Shown here: piece by piece, positions 60,813 through 63,300 of the stretch
Position numbering within the stretch: the first letter of the stretch is position 1
How the letters are laid out: each line of letters opens with the position of its first letter
Assembly (NCBI GenBank): GCA_040754075.1
Contig: JBFMDH010000006.1
Span: 166,285 to 230,284, forward strand
From: Acidobacteriota bacterium
Lineage (GTDB): Bacteria > Acidobacteriota > Blastocatellia > UBA7656
DNA length: 64,000 bases
Reading direction: 5' to 3'
Made by a program: the position numbers and the translations under genes
The notes under the pieces: model-generated
Seen by the model: only the letters and a program-made list of their open reading frames with translations
Database searches by the model: none
What the model was told of the DNA's origin: nothing

Positions 60813-61781
60813 ATGTCAGCATCCTCAGCGCCGCCCGCTGGCGGCAGTAATATGATAGGCAAAATCATTGCCGGGGTCGCTTTGCTCGCATTGTTAATCG
60901 CTTACTTTACGGTCTTGAACGGTTTTCGTCATGAAGGCGAAAACCGTTCCGTAAATATTTCCGACAAGAGCAACGCCGGCGAAGACTATATTGAAATCAA
61001 TATCAAAGTGGTTTCCGTTGACCCGGTCAAAGGCGATTTGATTACGCGCCTCAGTTTTGAGCCGCATGGCGCGCTGGCGAAAGATGAATTTTCGCCCGCC
61101 AATGATTTAACTTTGCTCATCAACAGCGCCACCGGCAAACAGGAACACAAGTTTGAAAAAGGTAAACGCATGAATCCGATTGACGCGACGCTGACGCTTG
61201 ACGGCGAATCCAGCGAATACCCGTTCGATTCGCATGAAGCCGATTTGATTCTGCTGATGACCACACCCGTACAAGAAAAAGCCGAAGAGCCGAAAGAAGA
61301 ACCGCGCGAAGGCGCGGAAAGCGAACCGGCTCCGAAACAGCCGCAAAAAGCCAGTGTTTACGATAGCAATGAACCCGTGGCAATGGCGGTTGAATTCACC
61401 GGTTCGGTGCCGGGTCTCAAACTCGACGCCGAGAAAGATAAAGAGAGCGAGGTCGGTTACACGGGCATCGAAATGACCATTTCGCGTTCGACAACGGTGT
61501 TGTTTTTTTCGAGCTTTGTGATGGTTTTGATGTTGGGTCTGGCAACTATGGCTACCGGCTTGATGCTGCGTTTCTGGCTCGGCAAACGCAAAGTTGAACT
61601 TGCCGCAATGAGTTTGTACGGCGCAATGCTCTTTGCGTTTCCGGCGTTGCGCAACAGTCAACCGGGCGTGCCGCCGATTGGCACCTACAGCGATTATATC
61701 TCGTTTTTCTGGGCTGAAATTTTAATCGGCATTTGCCTGTTGATTATCGGCTCGCTGTGGGTCATTCGCCGTCCGTCATAA
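60813..61781 (+). CDS. DUF4436-like membrane protein
   Basis: 322 residues. One N-terminal membrane helix (KIIAGVALLALLIAYFTVL), a large external beta-rich domain (VDPVKGDLITRLSFEPHGA, PFDSHEADLILLM) interrupted by a Glu/Pro-rich loop, and three C-terminal membrane helices. This layout matches DUF4436. AAGGAG precedes ATG 60813. Its 3' end is convergent with, and by my reading overlaps by five bases, the extended radical SAM selenoprotein gene. Confidence 0.82.
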   Translation: MSASSAPPAGGSNMIGKIIAGVALLALLIAYFTVLNGFRHEGENRSVNISDKSNAGEDYIEINIKVVSVDPVKGDLITRLSFEPHGALAKDEFSPANDLTLLINSATGKQEHKFEKGKRMNPIDATLTLDGESSEYPFDSHEADLILLMTTPVQEKAEEPKEEPREGAESEPAPKQPQKASVYDSNEPVAMAVEFTGSVPGLKLDAEKDKESEVGYTGIEMTISRSTTVLFFSSFVMVLMLGLATMATGLMLRFWLGKRKVELAAMSLYGAMLFAFPALRNSQPGVPPIGTYSDYISFFWAEILIGICLLIIGSLWVIRRPS

Positions 61782-63300
61782 GCGTTTAAAATTGCGATTT
61801 CTTTTCAAGAGCGCCAAACTGGCCTCGCGTCGGTTCGGCTCAGCAAAACCACGCTTCGGTAAGGCGCGGCGGCTTGATGCGATGAGTAGCAAGCAATGCC
61901 TGGTTACGAACCGCTAGCTCATCGCCGCGCCTCACTTTTGCCAGTTCGCGAATGCGATAAAAAGTTACCGCTGTATCTTCATTGCGTTGCGCTGCGCCTT
62001 CAACCAGAACCGCAACCTGCCGTTGCAATTCATCCATTCGCGCATCCGGGTGTTGCCAGTCATAAGTGAACGCCGGTTGATTGAGTTTGCCAAGCCACAG
62101 GGAAGTTTCTTCGCGTTCAAGCAGGCGCGAACCCGGCGGCACGAGTAAACGAATCGAATATTGCACGGGGTCAACCGCATCGATGAGATTTTCGCGTTCA
62201 ACGAAATCCATCACCTCGATGAAATCATCAAGCGTCGTCCAGGGCGTAAATGAAACCAGCGACGGGCGCATGGCAATACCCGCTTCACGCAAAATATTTA
62301 AAGCGTCCGTGACATCATTTCGCGTATGGCGTTTTTCAAGGCGCATCAAGACTTCATCGCTTAACGCTTCAACCGCCGATACCACGAAGATACAACCATA
62401 CCTGGCAAACGATTTGAATAACTCACGATGTTTGATGATGTGTTCAATCTTTGCCGTGAAATCAAACGTCAAATGCGGAAAGGCTTGGTGCAAGCTTTCG
62501 GTCACTCGCAAGGCATGCGTCGGGCCATTCAAAAAATCGGGGTCGCCAAAGGTGATGTGCGCGGCTCCCGCTTCGACGAGTTGACGAATATCTTCAAGCA
62601 CGACTTCACGCGGCACCGCAAAAAATCGCCCTTCGTAAATCGGCGGAATCGGACAATGGGTGCAATGATGCAGGCAACCACGCGAGGCTTCCGTATAACC
62701 CGCGAGCCGCTGTTCGCCCTGCCAATCGAGTCGCGCATAGCGTTCAAGCCCGGGCATTGCCGTGCGTTCAGGTTTGCTAAACGAAAGCCGCGCCAGCACA
62801 GGCATTGCCGCTTGCAGTCTGGTTTTTACGCCCGCCGGAATTGACAACCGCTCAGTCGCATTTTCATCTCGCGCCAATACTTTTTTAATTAACTCAACAA
62901 GCGCGGTTTCAAATTCGCCGCCGATGATTGAATCGGCAACCGTATCGAGCAAATAGTCGCTATTGAGCGAAGCATACAAACCATAAAAGCAGATATGACC
63001 ATCAGCATTGATGCGGCGAATCTCTTGTGCGATTGCCACGCCCAGACGCAAAGCCGTGTGCATCGGAACCGAGATGCCAATGAATTTCGCGCGGCTGATT
63101 TTCTCTGCATCGAAGCCTTCAACTGAAACATCCAGCGCGTCTGCGCGAATCCCTTCACGCTTGAAAAAACCAAGCGGCATGGCGATTCCCGCAGGTTGAT
63201 GACCGAGTTCATATGTCGAAATCAACACCACGTCTGCCGAATTTTCAGACATTCGCTGCATTCCATTTTTTTGCAGGCTCAACAAATTCATTGAGGTCAT
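61777..63300 (-). CDS. CUAEP-tail radical SAM selenoprotein with B12-binding-like domain
   Basis: Radical SAM enzyme. Residues 22-140 resemble a B12-binding Rossmann domain but lack DxHxxG; residues about 200-420 are the SAM barrel with cluster cysteines Cys209, Cys213 and Cys216 (CLHHCTHC). The frame reaches Trp-Phe-Cys486 and then TGA at 61842-61840. The next codons are GCC GAA CCG, so the tail reads C-U-A-E-P if TGA is selenocysteine. It then runs 17 more codons to TGA at 61779-61777 (507 residues). A 7-bp hairpin (GCCGAAC/GUUUGGC) begins directly after the TGA. A stop-terminated call would end at 61840. It follows an ATP-grasp gene by 31 bases. No selenocysteine machinery is in the window. 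Confidence 0.85.
61798..61842 (-). promoter_or_regulatory. Candidate bacterial SECIS element after the in-frame TGA
   Basis: On the minus strand GCCGAAC, directly after TGA, pairs with GUUUGGC across a 13-base loop (one G-U pair). A GG dinucleotide lies in the loop about 16-17 bases after the TGA, as expected for bacterial SECIS elements recognised by SelB. Confidence 0.6.

Follow-up and report, generated by a model that had tools for sequence, protein, structure and literature searches.

Within a 64,000-nt stretch of Acidobacteriota DNA (GenBank assembly GCA_040754075.1, contig JBFMDH010000006.1, positions 166,285–230,284; hereafter the window, meaning the whole stretch), a minus-strand gene at 63300–61786 encodes a protein that, judged by its sequence, is virtually certain to belong to the CUAEP/CCAEP-tail radical SAM (seleno)protein family NF040546. 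The in-frame TGA near the 3′ end of the gene (61842–61840) very probably encodes selenocysteine (Sec), a reading well supported by computation. Four independent lines back it, namely the Sec machinery of the genome, the exchange of Sec and Cys among homologues, the distribution of tRNA-Sec and a SECIS hairpin. The Sec reading and family membership are the only well-supported conclusions of the analysis as a whole. The best overall explanation, which we hold to be moderately probable, joins Sec insertion via SECIS and SelABCD with ArsL-like carboxypropyl chemistry and with a ligase and an Nfu protein as partners. The family itself is already known and named in NCBIfam, and the gene is a further member of it; the present analysis contributes the ligase that co-occurs with the family, the association with Nfu, the SECIS hairpin and its covariation, and the correspondence of the tail with that of ArsL.

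Gene, tail codon and family

The gene comprises 504 codons through the TGA, followed by a TAA stop. Its start was placed at the ATG at 63300 on the minus strand, the exact position being uncertain, with alternative ATGs at residues 14 and 17. Under translation table 11 the open reading frame is 486 amino acids long and ends at 61840 with the residues TEAWFC, which is where an earlier sequence-only reading of the window had expected ordinary gene calling to stop. The in-frame series Cys486-TGA-Ala-Glu-Pro that it had pointed out is present on the minus strand, the Sec487 codon lying immediately 3′ of the Cys486 codon and being followed by the codons of the conserved A-E-P-T tail (61839–61828), in which A-E-P is invariant. 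Read-through after Cys486 gives U-A-E-P-T-R-G-Q-F-G-A-L-E-K-K-S-Q-F and then TAA at 61788–61786. The product therefore has 504 residues including Sec487, and not 507 as first given, because the end assigned earlier, 61777, lies 9 nt past the stop.

The protein scores 692 bits against NCBIfam NF040546 (cut-off 500), covering model positions 1–467 of 468, so the family name that the sequence-only reading had given was right. All the features of the family are found: the C-[U/C]-A-E-P tail, the CX3CX2C motif and a full-model score. The radical SAM motif, C209-x3-C213-x2-C216 (62676–62653, minus strand; PF04055, 56.8 bits), is invariant in 57 homologues. Among these homologues the near-invariant cysteines are only C209, C213 and C216, C303 and the tail pair.

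Probable selenocysteine at the in-frame TGA

The source genome (7.58 Mb in 68 contigs) contains tRNA-Sec (65.5 bits, also called as tRNA-SeC by ARAGORN), SelA (566 bits), SelB (383 bits) and SelD (353 bits), all above their family cut-offs. A search for selA, selB, selC and selD had been suggested as a check, with a genome lacking Sec machinery as the refuting outcome, and it recovered the full set. The SelD of this genome is itself a selenoprotein, with an in-frame TGA and the residues SCAGUAAK at the active site (L019:1453-2526).

Alignment of homologues, the other check proposed, shows A-E-P retained after either TGA or Cys, the opposite of homologues that all end at the Cys. A W-[FY]-C-[U/C]-A-E-[P/A] tail is present in 102 of 103 family loci, 35 with TGA and 67 with Cys (TGC/TGT); the remaining locus is cut by a contig end at the tail. 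Loci on genome contigs were found with six peptide patterns, one of which covers the tail and introduces an ascertainment bias there, and loci found by a whole-protein profile are free of it. Sec or Cys occupies the position in homologues from many phyla. A tree of homologues requires about 10 Sec/Cys state changes, at least 5 of them forced by starred branches, indicating repeated exchange between Sec and Cys; in this run Thermomicrobium roseum was counted as Cys type, its actual codon being TGA. A tRNA-Sec was detected in 38 of the 44 genomes of the TGA type, compared with 5 of the 10 of the Cys type (Fisher p 0.02), some genomes having been typed as TGA solely from a stop reported inside the profile match.

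A cultured example of the TGA form is found on plasmid NC_011961.1 of T. roseum DSM 5159 (L166:7968-9404), where A-E-P continues past the annotated stop and a GGACCC-GUC-GGGUCC hairpin follows the TGA. A search of the megaplasmid, and of it only, returned no tRNA-Sec above the cut-off. The RefSeq entry for this homologue carries the family name, and its protein stops at the Cys that precedes the TGA, a concrete case of annotation losing the conserved tail.

That the TGA is an ordinary stop, with the enzyme ending at Cys486 and the downstream A-E-P a relic or chance, is how standard gene calling and the RefSeq T. roseum entry treat the codon, and tRNA-Sec went undetected in 6 of the 44 TGA-type genomes. 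These six, however, are drafts that were searched with stricter filters, A-E-P is conserved past the TGA in 35 loci with Cys at the position in 67 others, the genome holds a complete Sec machinery, and the SECIS covariation described below is confined to the TGA type. We consider an ordinary stop very improbable.

A SECIS hairpin downstream of the TGA

TGA-type genes align without gaps downstream of the TGA, and judged by sequence they carry a SECIS hairpin just beyond it, with strong compensatory change. The hairpin has 7 bp and starts 12–13 nt after the TGA, pairing columns 16–22 with columns 28–34 (counted from the T of TGA), and its apex holds the invariant letters C22, G24 and G28. Pairing holds in 90.2% of cells when 32 non-redundant TGA-type sequences are compared, with 55 cells changed on both sides (21 ± 4.8 in shuffles) and a covariation of 0.623 (0.236 in shuffles); every slid register collapses. 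Across these columns, 32 Cys-type sequences show pairing in 40.2% of cells, and no measure departs from chance. The hairpin core lies within the minimum-energy fold of 19/32 TGA-type and 0/32 Cys-type sequences.

In the window this element is GAGGCC-AGUUU-GGCGCUC, 18 nt with one bulged G, located 13 nt after the TGA (61826–61809, minus strand). The sequence-only reading had instead taken a hairpin directly after the TGA, GCCGAAC/GUUUGGC, as the SECIS element. That hairpin does fold (–8.1 kcal/mol), but no pair in it is changed on both sides among the 32 homologues, so the smaller, more distal one is the actual SECIS element. Counting against this choice, the conserved hairpin of the window is bulged and, at –7.9 to –8.3 kcal/mol in isolation, is no more stable than the rejected hairpin. 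The loop GG described earlier at the usual distance proved to be part of the stem of the conserved hairpin. Hairpin, loop GG and length apart, the earlier interpretation of a selenoprotein of this named family is largely upheld.

An ATP-grasp ligase and an Nfu-type protein as probable partners

Directly upstream of the radical SAM gene, across a 31-nt gap, is an ATP-grasp gene on the same strand (64000–63332) that is cut by the window end (whole gene, L025:3332-4606). Its product combines ATP-grasp_4 and LAL_C2 domains, and its nearest solved structure is BL00235 (3vot, 139 bits), with BacD at 71 bits. BL00235 is an L-amino acid ligase that makes Met-Gly and Met-Met (PMC6920838). The partner gene is of the L-amino-acid-ligase type, with a predicted dipeptide-type ligase as its product.

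Our neighbourhood counts are based on the 46 family loci that are flanked by 6.5 kb or more on each side. The ATP-grasp gene is present in 36 of them, and the ATP-grasp gene, an Nfu gene or both in 40. Over all loci it lies upstream or downstream of the radical SAM gene on either strand (45, 19, 7 and 2 cases), indicating that the association survives rearrangement. Genomes with a family member have essentially one strong ATP-grasp copy each. The gene was found in 12 of 13 family-bearing genomes, a set selected so that ten of its members lacked an adjacent copy, and the one exception is a genome that is 74% complete. This set served as the positive control for a search of 48 genomes from the same phylum, largely complete and lacking a family match over the cut-off, none of which had the gene at E ≤ 1e-20 (12/13 vs. 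0/48, Fisher p 7e-12). We consider the ATP-grasp protein a likely functional partner of the CUAEP radical SAM enzyme.

A third neighbourhood member is an Nfu-type Fe-S carrier with Nfu_N and NifU domains (58933–58340, minus strand), and a gene of this type is nearby in 30 of the 46 well-flanked loci. The ligase gene and the Nfu gene of genome G319 are together, apart from the radical SAM gene. Nine acidobacterial loci have a gene for a POT-family oligopeptide:H+ symporter next to the radical SAM and ligase genes (for example L149:6380-7885 and L158:6801-8282), and a sodium:solute symporter gene occurs in 4 acidobacterial loci.

Just beyond the window end and directly upstream of the ATP-grasp gene is a cluster (L025:4843-8302) with an Rv1679/FadE16-like acyl-CoA dehydrogenase, an Rv1680-family SBP-like protein and a ferritin/AurF-like protein. 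We excluded it from the system because it is beside no other family locus on the genome contigs. Many of the recurrent neighbourhood clusters were likewise set aside, as they turned out to be shadow ORFs antisense to the two main genes. Farther along (L025:13080-18966), the translations give the impression of large proteins resembling RAMP-type (type III CRISPR-like) subunits.

Kinship with ArsL and candidate chemistry

By sequence, the closest characterized relative of the protein is ArsL, at 345 bits against model NF040542, below its curated cut-off of 450; HpnR is next at 59 bits. Identity to proteins with the ArsL-type RCCLKC tail is about 31–37% over the core, and 49 of the 76 most conserved CUAEP-family positions are identical in three ArsL proteins. 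His215 and His325 are specific to the CUAEP family relative to ArsL. The tail residues C486-C/U487 align with the Cys-Cys of the RCCLKC tail; the third Cys of that tail corresponds to Pro490, and the RCCLKC tail as such is absent. From arsenite, ArsL produces hydroxyarsinothricin, a conversion predicted to involve transfer of the 3-amino-3-carboxypropyl (ACP) group from SAM to arsenic (PMC8552651); a 2024 JACS study, as cited in PMC12159101, reports that C–As bonds form via non-canonical SAM cleavage.

Queries with ArsR, ArsM, ArsB, ArsC, ArsQ and ArsN1 against 103 neighbourhoods found no ars gene consistently beside the family, the sole ars-type matches being weak ArsM-like ones at two loci. 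Arsenic detoxification was ruled out as the context on this basis, and arsenic as a substrate is unsupported by context. It is quite unlikely, then, that the protein is a plain ArsL that makes arsinothricin for arsenic metabolism: the kinship and the common Cys pair of the tail speak for it, but its score is below the ArsL cut-off, its tail differs, the 103 loci have no ars operon, and a dedicated ligase is present here of a kind that the characterized arsQML system does not need (PMC8552651).

ArsL-type RCCLKC genes themselves occur near ATP-grasp and ars genes on plasmids of Alicyclobacillus (L167:1112-6266) and Priestia (L169:1366-6311), and their ATP-grasp proteins are about 25% identical to the CUAEP-linked one. 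The RCCLKC genes there also adjoin a gene of the carboxymuconolactone decarboxylase family, and such clusters, with this gene and the ATP-grasp gene, suggest a modified arsinothricin-type product.

To our knowledge, no peptide, activity or metabolite of a CUAEP protein has been described. By analogy with ArsL, carboxypropyl-transfer chemistry is quite possible, if short of probable. The hairpin at 61826–61809 and the SelABCD set of the genome very probably direct decoding of the TGA as Sec. SAM would be cleaved at a [4Fe-4S] cluster bound by C209, C213 and C216, as in ArsL, to give a 3-amino-3-carboxypropyl radical, which would add to arsenite or to some other soft pnictogen or chalcogen species that a presumably flexible C-terminal Cys486-Sec487 pair holds. 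The aligned Cys-Cys of ArsL makes the holding of a soft element no less plausible a role for the Cys-Sec pair than redox chemistry. The product would be a 2-amino-4-X-butanoate, a Met/Glu-like amino acid, that the ATP-grasp ligase may join to another amino acid to form a dipeptide, and the Nfu protein may supply or repair Fe-S clusters.

The predicted structure (mean pLDDT 93, 80–84 in the tail) bears on two other chemistries. Its matches include AprD4 (Z 27.4), MgmA, OxsB and TsrM, the latter three cobalamin-dependent, and also MiaB and RimO. Residues 25–137 (63228–62890, minus strand) may form an N-terminal Rossmann-like domain of the B12-binding type (PF02310, 30.7 bits). The main rival accordingly treats the enzyme as being of the canonical 5′-deoxyadenosyl kind or as a cobalamin-dependent methyltransferase, in which Cys-Sec, instead of holding a soft element, would form a redox pair or donate an H atom, and draws on the four closest folds, on this weak domain match and on the established use of vicinal Cys-Sec pairs for redox in other proteins. 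The PF02310 score, however, is below the Pfam cut-off of 32.1, ArsL is far closer by sequence (345 bits, against 59 for HpnR) and it has a Cys-Cys in its tail as well; we view this rival as possible but not probable. Insertion of S or Se by an enzyme that sacrifices an Fe-S cluster, in the manner of lipoyl synthase or the methylthiotransferases, would fit the Nfu gene in 30/46 neighbourhoods and the MiaB and RimO matches. It is unlikely, as MiaB types score no higher than 33 bits by sequence, a weak similarity, and without a contribution from the tail the near-invariant cysteines would not suffice for a conventional second cluster.

A possible pathway and its significance

ArsL-like transfer, the reading we prefer, can be extended to a whole pathway. 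The family is found in Acidobacteriota, Actinomycetota, Chloroflexota, Nitrospirota and others, and its co-occurrence across many phyla with a dedicated dipeptide-type ligase suggests an as yet undescribed small-molecule pathway akin to that of arsinothricin. Arsinothricin is an arsenic antibiotic. In a more speculative and doubtful form, the CUAEP enzyme, the ATP-grasp ligase and Nfu would constitute this pathway, a soft element held by the tail and a carboxypropyl radical yielding an element-bearing amino acid that is released as a dipeptide.

Sec is rare in radical SAM enzymes. The chemistry of this family becomes testable now that a SECIS element is defined, ArsL is recognized as a relative in mechanism and a partner gene is known whose phylogenetic profile is tight (12/13 vs. 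0/48). Roughly two thirds of the loci carry Cys naturally, so that enzymes of the family can be expressed in the absence of Sec machinery. A literature text search for CUAEP or CCAEP, covering part of the selenoprotein literature, returned no publication on the family, and the main text of a 2026 review of the prokaryotic selenoproteome (PMC13188914) does not mention it.

Comparison with known systems

The protein matches NF040546 over its whole length and has the C-U-A-E-P tail and the Sec/Cys exchange in common with that family, with no difference from it. Two other radical SAM selenoprotein families, TIGR04167 (rSAM_SeCys) and NF045646 (TrsS), appear in the prokaryotic selenoprotein inventory (PMC13188914). 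They too are Sec-containing radical SAM proteins, but are distinct NCBIfam families, and the 18 families that the CUAEP protein matches include neither of them. The ATP-grasp partner has the ATP-grasp_4 and LAL_C2 domains in common with BL00235 and BacD, but falls below the curated cut-offs of the equivalog models for known L-amino acid ligases. ArsL differs in its RCCLKC tail, in place of C-[U/C]-A-E-P, and lacks the roughly 60–70 extra residues that precede the CUAEP tail, and CUAEP loci lack an ars gene neighbourhood. The two nevertheless have in common the CX3CX2C motif and the aligned Cys pair of the tail, and some plasmid-borne relatives have an ATP-grasp gene nearby, as do the CUAEP loci.
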